Shown: one piece after another, positions 8,583-12,824 of the stretch
How positions within the stretch are numbered: the stretch's first letter is position 1
How the letters are laid out: each line of letters starts with the position of its first letter
NCBI GenBank assembly: GCA_029071285.1
Contig: JAIEAS010000043.1
Location: 1-17,830, forward strand
Direction of reading: 5' to 3'
Source of the DNA: Clostridia bacterium
Lineage (GTDB): Bacteria; Bacillota; Clostridia; Christensenellales; Borkfalkiaceae
Length of the DNA: 17,830 bases
Position numbers and translations under genes: made by a program
The notes under the pieces: model-generated
Seen by the model: only the letters and a program-made list of their open reading frames with translations
Databases searched by the model: none
Told to the model about the DNA's origin: nothing

Positions 8583-9656
8583 TCAGTAGTAAACTTCCTC
8601 TATAACCCCGCCGCCGAGGCAGGCAACTTCATCGTAAAACACAGCGTATTGTCCTTCGGTTACGGCGCGCTGAGGCTCGTTAAATTCCACGAGCGCACCG
8701 CCGTCTTTCAGCGTTACGCGCACTTTCTGCTCGGACTGGCGGTAGCGGAATTTCGCCGTGCAGTCAAAGGATATATCGGGCTCAAAGCCAATCCAGTTCA
8801 GTCCCGAAACTCTGCACGCCTTCGAGTACAGCGGGCTTTCGTCGCCGTGGGAGACGTAGAGGATATTGTTTTTCAAATCCTTTTTTACGACGAACCACCT
8901 GCCTTCTTCGCCCGCCCGTCCGCCGAGGTCAAGCCCCTTGCGCTGACCTATCGTGTAGTACATAAGCCCGATATGTTCGCCGACCTTTTCGCCGCCGAGG
9001 GTAAGAATTTTTCCGCTCTGCGCGGGCAGGTAGTTCTGTAAAAATTTTCTGAAATTGCGCTCGCCGATAAAGCATATCCCCGTGGAATCCTTCTTCGAAG
9101 CGGTCGCAAGTCCGTTTTCTTCGGCAAGCTTTCTCACTTCCGTCTTGGGCATATCCGCGAGCGGAAACAGCACGTTTGCAAGCTGTTCCTCGCGCACCTG
9201 ATTTAAAAAGTAGGTCTGGTCCTTGCCCGCGTCCGCGGCTTTTAAAAGACGGTGTCTGCCGTTCGCGTGTTCTATCTTGCAGTAATGCCCCGTCGCAACG
9301 AAGTCCGCGCCTAAACTCAGCGCATAGTCGCGGAAGGGACCGAACTTAATTTCGCGGTTGCACAAAACGTCGGGGTTGGGAGTTCTGCCCGCCTTATATT
9401 CCGCAAGGAAATATGAAAAGACGCGCTCCTCGTACTGCTTTGCGAAGTTCACACTGTAGTAGGGGATATCCAGTGCCGAACACACGCGCTGAACGTCGGC
9501 GTAGTCGGCTTCGGCACTGCACGCGCCGCGGGCGTCTTCCTCTTCCCAGTTGAGCATATACAGCCCTATTACGTTGTAGCCCTGCCGTTTTAAAATGAGC
9601 GCAGCCGCGGACGAATCCACGCCGCCGCTCATTCCCACGACAACCGTTTTCGACAT
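8583..9656 (-). CDS. mnmA: tRNA-specific 2-thiouridylase MnmA
   Basis: The 357-residue enzyme transfers sulfur to C2 of U34 in the wobble position of tRNAs for Glu, Gln and Lys, via an adenylated intermediate. Visible marks are the PP-loop SGGVDSS (10-16), the catalytic cysteines in NPDVLCN (Cys99) and GICFIGE (Cys195), GHYCKIE (123-129), DQTYFL (146-151), and the C-terminal beta-barrel region. I place the start at the ATG at 9656. An AGGTG site lies about 6 bases upstream and the protein then begins SKTVVVGMSGG as in homologues. An in-frame extension to 9713 would run through the promoter. Length is normal. Confidence 0.96.
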   Translation of the reverse strand: MSKTVVVGMSGGVDSSAAALILKRQGYNVIGLYMLNWEEEDARGACSAEADYADVQRVCSALDIPYYSVNFAKQYEERVFSYFLAEYKAGRTPNPDVLCNREIKFGPFRDYALSLGADFVATGHYCKIEHANGRHRLLKAADAGKDQTYFLNQVREEQLANVLFPLADMPKTEVRKLAEENGLATASKKDSTGICFIGERNFRKFLQNYLPAQSGKILTLGGEKVGEHIGLMYYTIGQRKGLDLGGRAGEEGRWFVVKKDLKNNILYVSHGDESPLYSKACRVSGLNWIGFEPDISFDCTAKFRYRQSEQKVRVTLKDGGALVEFNEPQRAVTEGQYAVFYDEVACLGGGVIEEVYY

Positions 9657-9684
9657 ATTTACACCTGCAATTAATTTTAAAATA

Positions 9685-9741
9685 ATTATATCACGGCATA
9701 TTAAGATTTGCAATTAATTTGTTTTGTGGTATAATACCGCT
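9685..9741. promoter_or_regulatory. Divergent promoters sharing one palindromic -35 hexamer (mnmA and DUF4250/tRNA-Arg)
   Basis: TTGCAA at 9708-9713 is its own reverse complement. Leftward (-), it is followed after 17 bp by TATAAT (9690-9685), with a TGn extended -10, toward mnmA. Rightward (+), it is followed after 16 bp by TATAAT (9730-9735), also with TGn (9727-9729), toward the DUF4250 gene. The ATG at 9742 lies six bases after that -10, so the rightward mRNA would be leaderless. Both promoter reads come directly from the sequence; their activity is inferred. Confidence 0.75.
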
Positions 9742-9921
9742 ATGGATTTGCCGCAGGACGATTTTATTTTACTCTCTTTTATAAACACCAAGCTGCGCGA
9801 CGAGTACTCCTCGCTTGATGAGCTTTGCGACAGTCTGGATATACCGTGCGAAACAATCTTGTCGCGGCTGGATAATCTGGGTTACACCTACGACGAAGAT
9901 AAAAACGCCTTTACAAGATAA
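9742..9921 (+). CDS. DUF4250 family small protein
   Basis: The 59-residue acidic protein MDLPQDDFILLSFINTKLRD... matches the DUF4250 pattern as I recall it: an N-terminal LP-D start, LLS-NTKLRD-Y-SLD-LC, and a GY-YD C-terminal motif. Function is unknown. The start at 9742 is chosen because the upstream in-frame TTG at 9724 would require translating the -10 box. There is no Shine-Dalgarno sequence, and the position fits a leaderless message. tRNA-Arg begins 5 bases after the stop, so the two are probably on one transcript. Confidence 0.85.
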   Translation: MDLPQDDFILLSFINTKLRDEYSSLDELCDSLDIPCETILSRLDNLGYTYDEDKNAFTR

Positions 9922-9926
9922 TATAC

Positions 9927-10004
9927 GTACCCGTAGCGCAATTGGATTAGAGTTTCAGATTCCGATTCTGACGGTTGCAGGTTCGAGCCCTGTCGGGTAC
10001 ACCA
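9927..10004 (+). tRNA. tRNA-Arg(CCG)
   Basis: The full cloverleaf is readable. The acceptor is GTACCCG (9927-9933) with CGGGTAC (9994-10000), discriminator A, and encoded CCA (10002-10004). The anticodon stem TCAGA/TCTGA (9955-9959 with 9967-9971) closes the loop TTCCGAT, with anticodon CCG at 9962-9964. The T arm is GCAGG-TTCGAGC-CCTGT. The D stem (9936-9939 with 9950-9953) is weak, with one G-A mismatch and one G-U. It decodes CGG. No independent -35 precedes it; only a GATAAT-like box overlaps the end of the DUF4250 gene, so it probably depends on read-through from the upstream promoter. Confidence 0.95.
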
Positions 10005-10044
10005 AACAGTCCGCCCGCACATTTGTGCGGGCGGACTGTTTATT
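10005..10044 (+). terminator. Intrinsic terminator after tRNA-Arg
   Basis: A perfect 16-bp stem (10005-10020 with 10025-10040) with loop ATTT starts immediately after the tRNA CCA and is followed by TATTATA. It ends the DUF4250-tRNA-Arg transcript. Confidence 0.85.
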
Positions 10045-10059
10045 ATAGAGCAATAGCCT

Positions 10060-10177
10060 CCGTCGTACCGAAGCGCGTATGCGCTTACGCTATGTGCCGC
10101 TTGTTCGTGCGAGCGAAGCGACGCCCAACCGAGGGGACCCCTTCAGGGGTTTCGGTTGAATCCATTCGGGCGCACCA
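10060..10177. repeat. Multi-hairpin intergenic element ending in a tRNA-like 3' end
   Basis: Three local palindromes lie in a row. They are AAGCGC-GTAT-GCGCTT (10071-10086), a CGCTT...AAGCG hairpin (about 10098-10120), and a compound one from about 10127 to 10157 with outer arms AACCGA/TCGGTT and an inner ACCCC-TTCA-GGGGT. The element ends with GGTTGAATCC (10154-10163) and GGGCGCACCA (10168-10177). These look like a worn T arm and a tRNA acceptor with CCA, and an intrinsic terminator follows as after a tRNA. The T stem does not pair and no 5' acceptor half is visible, so it is not a working tRNA. Repeat status is inferred from recalled similarity to tRNA-adjacent repeats. Confidence 0.45.
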
Positions 10178-10184
10178 AAATTTT

Positions 10185-10208
10185 AACCCCGCGTTTGCGG
10201 GGTTTTAT
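10185..10208 (+). terminator. Intrinsic terminator
   Basis: AACCCCGC (10185-10192), loop GTTT and GCGGGGTT (10197-10204) form a perfect 8-bp stem running into TTATTTTT. No gene lies directly upstream on this strand apart from the tRNA-like remnant, which suggests a tRNA once preceded it. Confidence 0.7.
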
Positions 10209-10222
10209 TTTTGCACTAAAAT

Positions 10223-10372
10223 TTAAAGTAAAGTTTTGTACCAGTTCCAGACATCTTTAAAAAAGTTCCATATATTATCACCTTGCACCGCGTATAGGCA
10301 ACAAAACTCAATTACGATTACCGCAACAAACAGCAAAATACCTATTAATATATATTTCAATATCTTTTTCAT
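10223..10372 (-). CDS. Small single-span membrane peptide (49 aa) coupled to the SLOG gene
   Basis: The peptide begins MKKILKYILIGILLFVAVIV, has one hydrophobic helix (about 5-27) with two adjacent cysteines, and ends with a Trp-rich amphipathic tail (NIWNFFKDVWNWYKTLL). Its ATG overlaps the TGA of the upstream SLOG gene in an ATGA junction. AGGGGG lies just upstream as a ribosome-binding site. These two signs support a real gene despite its size. The basic N-terminus suggests an inside-to-outside orientation. I know no family for it. Being co-expressed with a SLOG protein, it may act at the membrane with it, which is inference. Confidence 0.7.
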   Translation of the reverse strand: MKKILKYILIGILLFVAVIVIEFCCLYAVQGDNIWNFFKDVWNWYKTLL

Positions 10373-10878
10373 TTATCCCCCCTGTATAAGTCTATTAGCA
10401 CGATAGATTTATTTTCTTTATGTGCGTAGTTAATCGTGTACCAAGTACCGCCTTTTTCAATGCCGTTGAATACTGCAATTACAAGCTCGCTTTTATCCAC
10501 CATATAGCGGTTACGCTTTAACATACACTCGGTGGTATACCGCTCGGAAATAATGTTTATTTTGTCCGCACGCTTTAAAATGCCGTTATAGCGCAACTTG
10601 TCTTTATCGTTCCATTTTGAAGTTTGATTAGGGCAAGGAATAGCGCACTCTAAGGTAACAGGGTAATACTTCCGCAGTTTCAATACAATTTCCGCAAAGT
10701 CTAAATCTGTGCCCAAAGCCATACCCGAAATAAAGTTTGTTATTCCGTACTCGGTAATAGCAAGCTTTATTTTTTCTTCGAGCTTTTTTAAATAGTCGTT
10801 GTGTTTCTGTTTGTCAACGCCGTACTTAAACGGAAAACCCTTCGGGCGGTGTCCTGTACAGCAACAAGTTTTTATCAT
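10369..10878 (-). CDS. SLOG superfamily protein (DUF1273/YpsA-like)
   Basis: The 169-residue protein starts CCCTGHRPKGFPFKYG, with the TGHRP motif at 8-12 characteristic of the DUF1273/YpsA branch of SLOG Rossmann-fold proteins. SGMALGTD (51-58) and AVFNG (135-139) followed by KGGTWYTINYA (142-152) match the nucleotide-binding loops of the fold. SLOG domains are thought to bind or process nucleotide-derived ligands. Some are sensors or effectors in conflict systems, while YpsA itself is linked to cell division in Firmicutes. GGAG lies 10 bases before the start. The gene is divergent from a Cro/C1-type regulator and overlaps the small membrane-peptide gene, in DNA that is AT-richer than the flanking core genes. 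Confidence 0.88.
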   Translation of the reverse strand: MIKTCCCTGHRPKGFPFKYGVDKQKHNDYLKKLEEKIKLAITEYGITNFISGMALGTDLDFAEIVLKLRKYYPVTLECAIPCPNQTSKWNDKDKLRYNGILKRADKINIISERYTTECMLKRNRYMVDKSELVIAVFNGIEKGGTWYTINYAHKENKSIVLIDLYRGDK

Positions 10879-10907
10879 TTATAAATAACTCCATTTTAAT
10901 CCGGATT

Positions 10908-10936
10908 TTCATAAGCGTTGGTGCACCAACGACCAA
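10908..10936 (-). promoter_or_regulatory. Probable SLOG-gene promoter with operator 1 in its spacer
   Basis: On the minus strand TTGGTC (10936-10931) and TATGAA (10913-10908) are separated by 17 bp. The spacer contains the perfect palindrome CGTTGGTGCACCAACG (10916-10931). A repressor bound there would block this promoter. Confidence 0.6.
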
Positions 10937-10952
10937 AAATTCCATAAGCACA

Positions 10953-10980
10953 TATAATACCCTTGTTGGTACACCAACAA
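10953..10980 (+). promoter_or_regulatory. Regulator promoter -10 box and operator 2
   Basis: TATAAT (10953-10958) lies about 40 bases before the regulator ATG, with only a weak -35. Operator 2, TTGTTGGT-AC-ACCAACAA (10963-10980), covers the expected transcription start and shares GTTGGT...ACCAAC with operator 1. The layout suggests autoregulation. Confidence 0.6.
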
Positions 10981-10997
10981 AAGAGGGTAAAAAAAAT

Positions 10998-11231
10998 ATG
11001 AGATTAGTTGATGCTGTTTATGCAAGGATTATGGAACTTGCGGAAGAAAAAGAAATGAATGTTAATGCTTTTGCCAATATGTGCGGCATTCCCCGTTCAA
11101 CAATAGTTACTATGCCAAGGAGTAAGACTGCTAAGCTTTCTACAATTTACGGCGTTTGCGAAGGTGTAAATATTACTTTACAAGAATTTTTTAATTCGCC
11201 TATATTTAGCCGTGAAAATATTGTAGATTAA
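10998..11231 (+). CDS. Small Cro/C1-type (XRE family) helix-turn-helix regulator
   Basis: The 77-residue protein is a single DNA-binding domain: VYARIMELAEEKEMNVNAFA (helices 1-2), a recognition region GIPRSTIVTMPRSKTAK (about 30-46), then LSTIYGVCEGVNITLQEFF, the classic C-terminal end of XRE-type domains. A purine-rich AAAAGAGGG precedes the ATG. It is divergent from the SLOG gene. Palindromes lie in both promoters and just after its stop, so it most likely represses both directions. A hairpin with a T run at 11311-11344 can end its transcript. Confidence 0.85.
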   Translation: MRLVDAVYARIMELAEEKEMNVNAFANMCGIPRSTIVTMPRSKTAKLSTIYGVCEGVNITLQEFFNSPIFSRENIVD

Positions 11232-11234
11232 AAA

Positions 11235-11260
11235 TATAATGTTGGTATGCCAACATTATA
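11235..11260. promoter_or_regulatory. Third GTTGG...CCAAC palindrome, just after the regulator gene
   Basis: Arms TATAATGTTGG (11235-11245) and CCAACATTATA (11250-11260) are perfect over 11 bp around TATG. The core GTTGGTATGCCAAC resembles operators 1 and 2 but has one mismatched step near the centre. It may be a third operator, or a stem at the 3' end of the regulator transcript; no T run follows directly. Confidence 0.5.
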
Positions 11261-11310
11261 TTACAATTTAAAATATTTATCAACATTAATTGTAAAAAAG
11301 GACTATTAAG

Positions 11311-11344
11311 TCCCCGTTTTCCGAAAAAGAAAACGGGGATTTTT
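11311..11344 (+). terminator. Intrinsic terminator, hairpin copy 1
   Basis: TCCCCGTTTT (11311-11320) pairs with AAAACGGGGA (11330-11339) and is followed by TTTTT. It is oriented to end the regulator transcript. In reverse it lies just after the lipoprotein stop but with a poorer T run. A near copy is at 11769-11798. Confidence 0.8.
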
Positions 11345-11719
11345 CTATTTATTAAATTCACTATGAGAATAATCGTCAAGAGTTACTGAAAAGGGAGTTA
11401 TAGTAAATTTCAGAATTTCCGTAAAGTAATTATTGTGCGCGCCCTCGAAAGTATCCACCGTAATTTTAACGGTAAAAACGTTACCCTTTCTTTCTAAAAT
11501 TTCAAGCTGTGAGTCGCCTATTTCGTAGCGGCGGTTATATCCGTAATAATCTGATATTGCTTTTTCGATATGAGGATGCAATAGCGTAATAGAAAGTTCC
11601 TCATAGTTTGAGCAAGTTGCTTGCGCATAAGCGGGAATTTTTGGTTTTGCTATTGCGGCGCAGGAGCAACCAGTAATAGCTAATAAGACAGACAGCACGA
11701 GTAATTTTATTCTTTTCAT
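11345..11719 (-). CDS. DUF3888-like lipoprotein
   Basis: The 124-residue protein has a lipoprotein signal peptide (KRIKLLVLSVLLAITGCS) with a lipobox ending at Cys18. A short domain follows with LLHPHIEKAISDYYGY (about 47-62) and TFEGAHNNYFTEILKF (about 92-107), resembling the DUF3888 pattern of YYG plus TFxGxHN motifs. It is presumably anchored to the outer face of the membrane; function is unknown. No Shine-Dalgarno sequence precedes the ATG. The gene sits alone on the minus strand between two near-identical hairpins in AT-rich DNA, a layout that suggests insertion. Confidence 0.75.
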   Translation of the reverse strand: MKRIKLLVLSVLLAITGCSCAAIAKPKIPAYAQATCSNYEELSITLLHPHIEKAISDYYGYNRRYEIGDSQLEILERKGNVFTVKITVDTFEGAHNNYFTEILKFTITPFSVTLDDYSHSEFNK

Positions 11720-11768
11720 AGCTATAGTATTTGCAATATTGAATTTTATCTGCCGAAATAATAATTAA

Positions 11769-11803
11769 CCCCCGTTTTCCGAAAAAGGGAAACGGGGGCT
11801 TTT
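11769..11803. terminator. Hairpin copy 2, terminator-like
   Basis: CCCCCGTTTTCC (11769-11780) pairs with GGGAAACGGGGG (11787-11798), loop GAAAAA, followed by CTTTTC. It shares 18 identical bases with the hairpin at 11312-11329. No plus-strand gene lies between the two copies, so as a plus-strand terminator it has nothing of its own to end. It may insulate the downstream bile salt hydrolase gene. Confidence 0.6.
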
Positions 11804-11822
11804 CAAATTTAAAAAAACAGGT

Positions 11823-11834
11823 TATAATTATAAT
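11823..11834 (+). promoter_or_regulatory. Tandem -10 boxes before the choloylglycine hydrolase gene
   Basis: TATAAT occurs twice back to back (11823-11828 and 11829-11834). The first would start transcription right at the GAGGTGAG ribosome-binding site (11835-11842), giving a very short leader. No convincing -35 is visible. Confidence 0.4.
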
Positions 11835-11846
11835 TGAGGTGAGCTT

Positions 11847-12824
11847 ATGTGTACGGCGGCGTGTTATAAGACAAAAGATTTTTACTTCGGGCGGACGCTC
11901 GATTACGATTTTTCTTACGCGGAAGAGGTTACGGTAACACCGCGCAATTTTCCGCTTCCGTTCAAAAATACCGGCGCGCTTAAAACCCATTACGCAATAA
12001 TCGGAATGGCGTTCGTGCCTGACGATTATCCGCTGTATTACGACGCGGTCAACGAAAAAGGGCTGTGTATGGCGGGGCTCAACTTCGTGGGCAACGCGTA
12101 TTACGGCAAGGCGGAAACGGGCAAGCTCAACCTCGCGCAGTACGAGTTTATCCCCTATATACTCGGCAAGTGCGCGAGCGTTAAAGAAGCTTTGAAAGAA
12201 CTCGAAGGCATAAACCTTATTGCCGTCGAATACGCTAAGGGTATGCTCGCGGCGCAGCTGCACTGGATTATCGCGGACAAGCAAAAAGCTATAACGGTTG
12301 AGTTTGTGAAAGAGGGGCTGAAAATTTACGACAACCCAGTGGGTGTGCTCACCAACAATCCGCCCTTTGACGAACAGCTTTTCAATCTTAACAACTATAT
12401 GAGCTTATCGCCCCGCGACCCCGAAAACAAATTTTCGGACAAGCTCAATTTATCTGCTTACAGCAGAGGAATGGGCGCGCTCGGACTGCCCGGCGATTTG
12501 TCGTCGCAGTCGCGTTTCGTGCGGGCAGCGTTCGTGAAAATGAACTCGGTTTCGGGAGACGGCGAAGAGGAGAGTGTAAACCAGTTTTTCCATATCCTCG
12601 GCTCGGTGTGCCAGCCGCGCGGCGCGTGCATTATCGGCAAAGACGGTTACGAAATTTCCATTTACACCTCGTGCTGCAACGCGGCGAAGGGGATATATTA
12701 TTACCAGACTTACGAAAATCACGCGGTTTCGGCGGTGGATATGCACGCGGAAAATCTTGACGGCGGCACTCTTTTCCGCTATCCCATAATCCGCCGCGAA
12801 AATATTACTTTTCAGAATAAATAA
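11847..12824 (+). CDS. Choloylglycine hydrolase family protein, probable bile salt hydrolase
   Basis: This is a 325-residue Ntn hydrolase. Cys2 follows the initiator Met and becomes the N-terminal nucleophile, which fixes the start. Other family positions are visible: Arg16 and Asp19 in GRTLDYD, Asn79 in GLNF, Asn171 in TNNP, and Arg223 in LSSQSRF after the LPGDLSS loop. Length fits bile salt hydrolases (about 315-330). The family cleaves amide bonds of glycine- or taurine-conjugated bile acids, or of penicillin V. The GLPGDLSS-SRF segment and overall resemblance favour the former, but activity and substrate cannot be told apart by eye. No signal peptide is present, so the enzyme is cytoplasmic. 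Glycerol kinase follows after 28 bases, probably co-transcribed. Confidence 0.88.
   Translation: MCTAACYKTKDFYFGRTLDYDFSYAEEVTVTPRNFPLPFKNTGALKTHYAIIGMAFVPDDYPLYYDAVNEKGLCMAGLNFVGNAYYGKAETGKLNLAQYEFIPYILGKCASVKEALKELEGINLIAVEYAKGMLAAQLHWIIADKQKAITVEFVKEGLKIYDNPVGVLTNNPPFDEQLFNLNNYMSLSPRDPENKFSDKLNLSAYSRGMGALGLPGDLSSQSRFVRAAFVKMNSVSGDGEEESVNQFFHILGSVCQPRGACIIGKDGYEISIYTSCCNAAKGIYYYQTYENHAVSAVDMHAENLDGGTLFRYPIIRRENITFQNK

Follow-up and report, generated by a model that had tools for sequence, protein, structure and literature searches.

A probable family of recombining cassettes that join divergent HTH regulators to SLOG proteins and small membrane peptides in Clostridia

YpsA is a SLOG protein whose overproduction impairs (blocks) cell division in Bacillus subtilis and Staphylococcus aureus, and its GxD/E motif matters for this effect (PMC6459960), which also depends on a 74-aa small protein, YfhS (PMC7376506). 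The consulted part of the former source names gpsB, PRTase, NAD-salvage and conflict contexts for YpsA/SLOG genes. In an uncultured Clostridia bacterium, a gene of this family occurs in a setting absent from that part of PMC6459960: it is joined to a gene for a 49-aa membrane peptide (PEP), and both are faced by a divergent Cro/C1-type regulator with matching palindromes. The locus raises the question whether these three genes form a fixed system, in which the SLOG protein acts through the peptide as the initial annotation proposed, or one of several arrangements of exchangeable parts.

The window, i.e., the whole stretch of 17,830 nucleotides that was analyzed, is contig C297 of a 1.54-Mb assembly in 358 contigs. 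Within it, tRNA-Arg and a DUF3888 lipoprotein-like gene bracket the three cassette genes (immediate neighbours: PEP, XRE, tRNA-Arg, DUF4250 and DUF3888). The features are as follows.

9927..10004, plus strand: tRNA-Arg (CCG), 3' end 218 bp from the cassette start (tRNA call)
10223..10372, minus strand: PEP, 49-aa single-span membrane peptide with a Trp-rich C-terminal tail (15 homologues, invariant residues, pN<pS)
10369..10878, minus strand: YpsA-type SLOG protein, 169 aa, GxD motif G56-x-D58 (PF06908, profile match to YpsA 2nx2)
10377..10382, minus strand: GGGGGG, Shine-Dalgarno-like run of PEP, within the end of the SLOG gene (sequence)
10917..10930, no strand: O1 palindrome GTTGGTGCACCAAC, presumed operator (exact in 6/7 aligned R1 loci)
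10953..10958, plus strand: TATAAT, presumed -10 of the regulator promoter, in the O1-O2 interval (sequence; A+T-rich TATAAT-like box in the R1 alignment)
10965..10978, no strand: O2 palindrome GTTGGTACACCAAC, presumed operator, 48 bp from O1 (core in 6/7 aligned R1 loci)
10998..11231, plus strand: 77-aa Cro/C1-type regulator, head group R1 (HTH_26; 114 homologues; PDB 3b7h)
11241..11254, no strand: O3 palindrome GTTGGTATGCCAAC behind the regulator (within a perfect inverted repeat with 13-bp arms, 11233-11262)

The SLOG stop and PEP start codons overlap as ATGA at 10369-10372, with the GGGGGG run 4 nt ahead of the PEP ATG. GC content is 35.9% at 10223-11260 (19 of 60 bases at 10741-10800) versus 47.9% for the whole window; among its other genes, mnmA has 54.5% and the CBAH gene 50.4%. 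The anatomy given in the initial annotation (a YpsA-type SLOG gene, an ATGA-overlapping 49-aa single-span peptide, a divergent 77-aa Cro/C1-type regulator) and its AT-richness were thus borne out, as were the three palindromes, which are exact and clustered. Two neighbouring stretches also drew attention. The DUF3888 gene (11345-11719) is flanked by two 27-nt hairpin sequences, 85% identical (CCCCGTTTTCCGAAAAAG.., 11312-11338 and 11770-11796), and is possibly another small inserted unit. The segment 10005-10215 holds short dispersed repeats, parts of which match 11 of 37 genomes searched (its own included), with seven places in G001.

The SLOG protein scored 78.4 bits against PF06908 (YpsA; cut-off 27.7), and its profile matched the YpsA structure 2nx2 at E 9e-10. 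The GxD/E ligand motif is present, G-x-D 56-58 aligning with GVE of 2nx2. In family and motif the protein is like B. subtilis YpsA; it differs in context, sharing its cassette with a membrane peptide and a facing HTH gene. The gpsB synteny of Firmicutes YpsA proper was not seen, and none of the seven window proteins scanned matched GpsB. SLOG matches at E<=1e-30, distant clades counted, occurred in 35 of 93 genomes of the genus.

PEP has a single hydrophobic span in its 49 residues. It exceeded no curated family cut-off, the best PHROGs match having E 0.009. Fifteen homologues were found at E<=1, and across 16 aligned rows W35, W42, W44 and Y45 are invariant, the invariant positions common to the homologues being Tyr-Ala-Val, Asn, Trp and Trp-x-Trp-Tyr. 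Among ten full-frame copies (L099, with a shorter frame, was left out), pN was below pS in all 45 pairs, with a median ratio of 0.39; the pairs share ancestry and are therefore not independent. On this conservation PEP is a real gene, maintained as a protein, and a spurious reading frame, which would have undone the annotated module, is excluded. PEP is sparse: of 93 genus genomes, 5 had strong matches and 7 had matches at E <= 0.001, and among 297 sampled genomes of the order strong matches occurred only in the window's own. Weak matches (E 1.7e-4 to 8.2e-4) in G357, G362, G163, G179, G275 and at a third place in G036 were left out of the copy count. The window's own assembly holds a second PEP gene copy (L096, G000:C163:3140-3295).

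The regulator scored 22.6 bits against HTH_26, barely above the cut-off of 22. It has 114 homologues and matches in 207 of 297 order genomes. Its nearest solved structure is 3b7h, protein 11 of prophage Lp1 (E 1.6e-11), with HigA- and HipB-type antitoxins as weaker neighbours (E 0.002-0.003). Three exact GTTGGNNNNCCAAC palindromes lie around its gene within 340 bp. None of 200 window shuffles reached three matches, one mismatch allowed. The whole 1.54-Mb assembly has four such palindromes, three of them at the cassette; the same pattern read backwards also occurs three times in the assembly, so that the motif is not rare by count, and what is rare is three within 340 bp. In an alignment of seven R1 loci (window, L034, L055, L056, L058, L060, L155), O1 is exact in all except L058, and the O2 core TTGG....CCAA is kept in all except L060, the full ten bases being found only in the window. 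The spacing of the two sites is about 45-48 bp, and a TATAAT-like box falls in the interval. L034, L055, L058 and L155 have one more exact copy, 15 bp upstream, which is missing from the window, and O3 has no equivalent behind the regulator in five other R1 loci. O3 overlaps a promoter-like site (11233-11283, TTGATA-17-TATAAT, 11/12) that reads in antisense across the regulator gene in the direction of SLOG. A divergent regulator with operators at conserved positions fits the repression assumed in the initial annotation; the positions recur in related loci, and repression itself stays presumed. Such spacing would suit a pair of dimers sharing one promoter region.

How regularly do the three genes keep company? 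In 23 SLOG loci from genome contigs, a divergent HTH gene adjoins SLOG in 21, by inspection plus a Pfam or profile match. It is missing in L013 and L020; L019 was counted through an identical protein in L150, L018 repeats L017, and in L011 and L024 some other ORF stands nearer to SLOG than the HTH gene. Under a strict profile count, a divergent HTH stood beside SLOG in 17 of 22 loci versus none of the 82 other ORFs there; as the seeds of the head profiles came from the very loci counted, the weight lies on the contrast and not on an exact P. These figures indicate that SLOG and the divergent HTH belong together. PEP is a much looser companion, present in 3 of the 23 loci. Of its 11 copies with DNA, four follow an intact, close SLOG gene with a 4-nt overlap (window, L002, L003, L010), and four follow a divergent HTH directly with no SLOG between (L090, L093, L098, L099). 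One (L092) follows a C-terminal SLOG stub; one (L097) overlaps by 4 nt a 420-aa surface-type protein that is itself preceded by a distant SLOG; and one (L096) lies at a contig end. L090 is the same place as L032, where a separate cassette, a distant SLOG with its own HTH, adjoins.

The conserved trio that would have marked a dedicated system was not what the search returned. The SLOG-PEP pairing stands as ATGA coupling in four loci; as an obligate sensor-effector pair it finds no support, and such a pair was rejected on finding PEP copies without SLOG. The arrangement named in the initial annotation as counting against a system, SLOG alone at the same site in close relatives, was not seen in that form; L093, at the same tRNA-Arg site, has PEP without SLOG and with another regulator.

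We refer to the HTH gene and its divergent promoter region as the head, and to the genes facing it as the cargo. Nine head groups, R1-R9, were named. Identity within groups is 61-95% overall (64-95% for R1-R6); between groups (R4-R6) it does not exceed 50% across most of the protein. For the most part the groups are distantly related, so that the exchange described below is between relatives and not between unrelated regulators. Each of R1-R6 was found with SLOG and with PEP: R2 with SLOG in L008 versus PEP in L032/L090, R3 with SLOG in L005, L006 and L012 versus PEP in L099, R4 with SLOG in L004, L007 and L019 versus PEP in L093, and R6 with SLOG in L009 versus PEP in L098. R1 (window, L034/L097) and R5 (L010) have both in one operon; R1 also occurs with a distant SLOG alone (L155), and R5 with PEP and the SLOG stub (L092). 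Eight groups (R1-R7, R9) stand beside the one PEP family. R1 heads with conserved operators and no recognisable divergent cargo were found at L055, L056 and L058. G005 and G036 each hold three different heads; the idea that such diversity within a genome signals orthogonality was set aside, the numbers being too small.

The presumed operators differ between groups. On the SLOG side of R2 (L008, L010), TCGTGG..CCACGA stands at about -80 and its partner at -36 is half degenerate; L032, with PEP, has its single intact site at -36. R3 has GGTTGC..GCAACC at about -82 and a weaker site near -36; it is intact in L005 and L006 (SLOG) and changed in L012 and in L099 (PEP; one arm). For R5, ATACC....GGTAT lies at -53 in L010 and L092 and is absent from the third copy (L006). 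The search turned up no group-shared palindrome in R4 (four copies), R6 (two) or R7 (two scanned). In R1-R3 the presumed operators go with the head and not with the cargo.

Blastn comparisons reveal a swap of heads, a swap of cargo at the same tRNA cluster, and a SLOG deletion. Between L006 and L009 the left flank is common at 77% and the sequence from about the third SLOG codon onward at 92%, while the heads between them (R3 versus R6) do not match each other. L006 and L099 share a tRNA cluster at 76-79% and an R3 head and promoter at 82%; the likeness stops just before the cargo start, SLOG following in L006 and PEP in L099. L010 and L092 share an R5 head (91%) and the SLOG end with PEP (79%), the remaining SLOG being missing from L092. 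All relatives come from MAGs or other assemblies, and misassembly is possible, above all in L009 and L092, both less than 1 kb from where a contig ends.

Other cargo enters the same arrangement. Homologues of the 420-aa L034 protein occur in L011 (30%) and on the IMG/VR contig L162 (63%), each with hydrophobic spans at the N- and C-terminus. In L162 an R1 head, 66% identical to the window's and with two GTTGG sites, faces the homologue with no SLOG between; in L060 and L061, R1-like heads face related 58-59-aa peptides (30%). By eye, L162:2427-4327 also carries genes resembling YolD and a Y-family polymerase, with a similar YolD-like ORF in L034 and a similar polymerase-like ORF in L016.

The association was also seen from the regulator side. 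Among the 29 best regulator loci beyond the window, 11 face a gene alignable as a SLOG set (A4); L063 and L084 also carry the A4 SLOG motif, and in L065 an A4-type gene faces a second regulator. Only L079 is above the Pfam YpsA cut-off; L082 (24.0 bits), L081 (22.9) and L077 (18.1) fall below it, and the remaining A4 genes, L084 not among them, match weakly or not at all. Profile A1 matched A4 with probability 97.5 (E 9e-12), and an A4 structure model (pLDDT 90) had YpsA 2nx2 as its best PDB match (E 5e-7). The trio of SLOG, PEP and regulator resembles one of several combinations drawn from a mix-and-match set, and not a fixed three-part system. At a separate locus, L036:59-3487, a SLOG-XRE pair adjoins what by eye are a Cas9-looking gene and a relaxase-like gene.

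Thirty distinct loci with SLOG and/or PEP were used for location (window, L002-L017, L019-L024, L032, L034/L097, L092, L093, L096, L098, L099). A tRNA lies within 260 bp of the cassette in eight (window, L002, L003, L004, L006, L093, L098, L099), and all eight cassettes are on its 3' side; L009 has the same tRNA-Lys flank by alignment, the contig end cutting the tRNA. No tRNA was called within 300 bp in the other 22. Nine further SLOG loci (L031, L033, L035, L149, L151-L155) likewise show no such neighbour, and the 25 distant-SLOG loci (L036-L054, L156-L161) all lack a tRNA. Since a tRNA also lies in the 3 kb of 5 of the 29 XRE controls (L055-L084, window excluded), tRNA proximity is not unique. 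Of 30 genus loci fetched (out of 70 matches, the window's own included), 29 have the window's tRNA-Arg no more than 1.5 kb from the DUF4250 gene. What stands 3' of tRNA-Arg(CCG) varies between species: an integrase in L109 (Phage_integrase, 2.7e-23), by eye also in L111, and a PEP cassette with an R4 head in G036 (L093). At this same site G019 has a GmrSD-type gene (L112:1-1224; GmrSD_N, E 6e-38).

No repeat of the tRNA-Arg 3' end was found in the window. Among the eight sites, L006 has an 18-nt copy of its tRNA-Lys 3' end 129 bp downstream and L098 a doubtful 11-nt one, and a regular expression for tRNA 3'-end remnants matched none of the eight. By eye, a tRNA-like 3' end lies at about 10153-10177 in the window; it is one base short of the remnant pattern and was not counted as evidence. 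The cassette encodes no recombinase; the pair that marks an integrative element, its own recombinase with att repeats, is absent. A viral home was considered and rejected, IMG/VR scans giving no SLOG or PEP relative; the regulator scan there gave two matches (L162, L163). SLOG relatives in 106 phage records, and likewise in 73 plasmid records, are all <60% identical.

A literature search by titles and the beginnings of abstracts returned no account of SLOG-XRE-operator-membrane cassettes, and the mechanism, from repression and induction to membrane action and a role in exclusion or growth arrest, is therefore one that we infer from the anatomy. A repressor dimer would bind two operators spaced about 45-48 bp, the first near the -35 region, the second next to the -10 or start of the regulator gene, and would keep expression of the regulator and of the facing cargo alike low. 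In the window that cargo consists of SLOG and the membrane peptide; other loci have either one by itself, or a secreted single-span surface-type protein that may or may not be accompanied by SLOG or PEP. Heads differing in operator and cargo would recombine with one another, partly 3' of tRNA genes. Cargo expression would follow from loss, dilution or titration of the repressor, as when the cassette enters a naive cell or a phage shuts off synthesis. SLOG would bind or make a nucleotide-type ligand and may stop division, as overproduced YpsA does; the peptide and the surface protein may act independently at the membrane. That these loci belong to a recombining family of small autorepressed cassettes, whose cargo is freed when the repressor is lost or titrated, we consider probable. 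A fuller version is put forward tentatively, as possible: combinatorial selfish or defensive cassettes of about 1 kb, often at tRNA 3' ends, in which exchangeable autorepressing HTH heads, individual in operator code and similar in two-site geometry, are joined near the cargo start codon to exchangeable membrane, surface or SLOG effectors freed on naive-cell entry or phage attack.

Four other readings deserve weight. The cassettes could be remnants of larger integrative elements, their heads former immunity repressors and their cargo accessory genes. In phage and ICE immunity modules, Cro/C1-type repressors are likewise divergent, operator-specific and exchangeable, and 3b7h is a prophage protein; the cassette differs as a unit of about 1 kb without a phage or recombination gene. 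The tRNA 3' sites, the integrases of L109 and L111, the L006 repeat and the R1 head of L162 speak for decay, which we hold to be rather unlikely given operator positions and coding frames kept in many copies, no SLOG or PEP relative in IMG/VR, and a 3'-end repeat at one of eight sites with a doubtful one at a second. Small membrane toxins resemble PEP in size and shape. PEP, with overproduced SLOG, might accordingly be toxic and the regulator its antitoxin; the divergent arrangement looks autoregulated, and HigA- and HipB-type antitoxins are among the regulator's weak structural neighbours. Eight head groups beside one peptide family argue against the specific toxin-antitoxin binding of a type II system. 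As to an antisense RNA of the type I kind, at gathering level over 9600-11900 tRNA was the sole match in Rfam, which covers described RNAs only. We regard a toxin-antitoxin module as unlikely.

Less likely still is a dedicated two-part defence system, in which a SLOG nucleotide signal gates PEP and the regulator serves as brake. In its favour are the ATGA coupling in four loci and a protein cluster (P0035) with SLOG and PEP in one chain, possibly by frameshift; SLOG domains are also part of Thoeris and of further conflict systems (PMC7272460, PMC9503650, in the parts consulted). It sits poorly with PEP directly behind the regulator in four loci, the stub of L092, and the 20 of 23 SLOG loci without PEP; PADLOC gave a partial ShosA match for SLOG (E 2e-5) and none for PEP or the regulator. 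The likeness to Thoeris is in the SLOG fold, the A4 set matching ThsA structures below YpsA; no Sir2 or TIR match was found among the seven window proteins scanned, nor did PADLOC report either for the three cassette proteins. B. subtilis YpsA-YfhS offers a parallel in that SLOG action needs a second small protein; YfhS carries no membrane-protein label in the consulted part of PMC7376506. Ordinary vertical inheritance, with a housekeeping YpsA homologue, a local regulator and the peptide as a chance neighbour, would agree with the conservation of YpsA in several Firmicutes (PMC6459960, consulted in part). We find it very improbable in view of the low GC, the patchy distribution, the contrast of 17/22 with 0/82, the lack of a GpsB match among the seven window proteins scanned and, assembly errors aside, the blastn exchanges.

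If the combinatorial cassette reading is true, promoter-repressor heads would evolve as exchangeable units independently of the effectors they control, on a scale smaller than the operon and in places other than recognised phages. The search rule 'same head, different cargo' would then find membrane effectors too small for routine annotation, and the cassette would provide a genetic setting for testing the ligand and effect of SLOG proteins.
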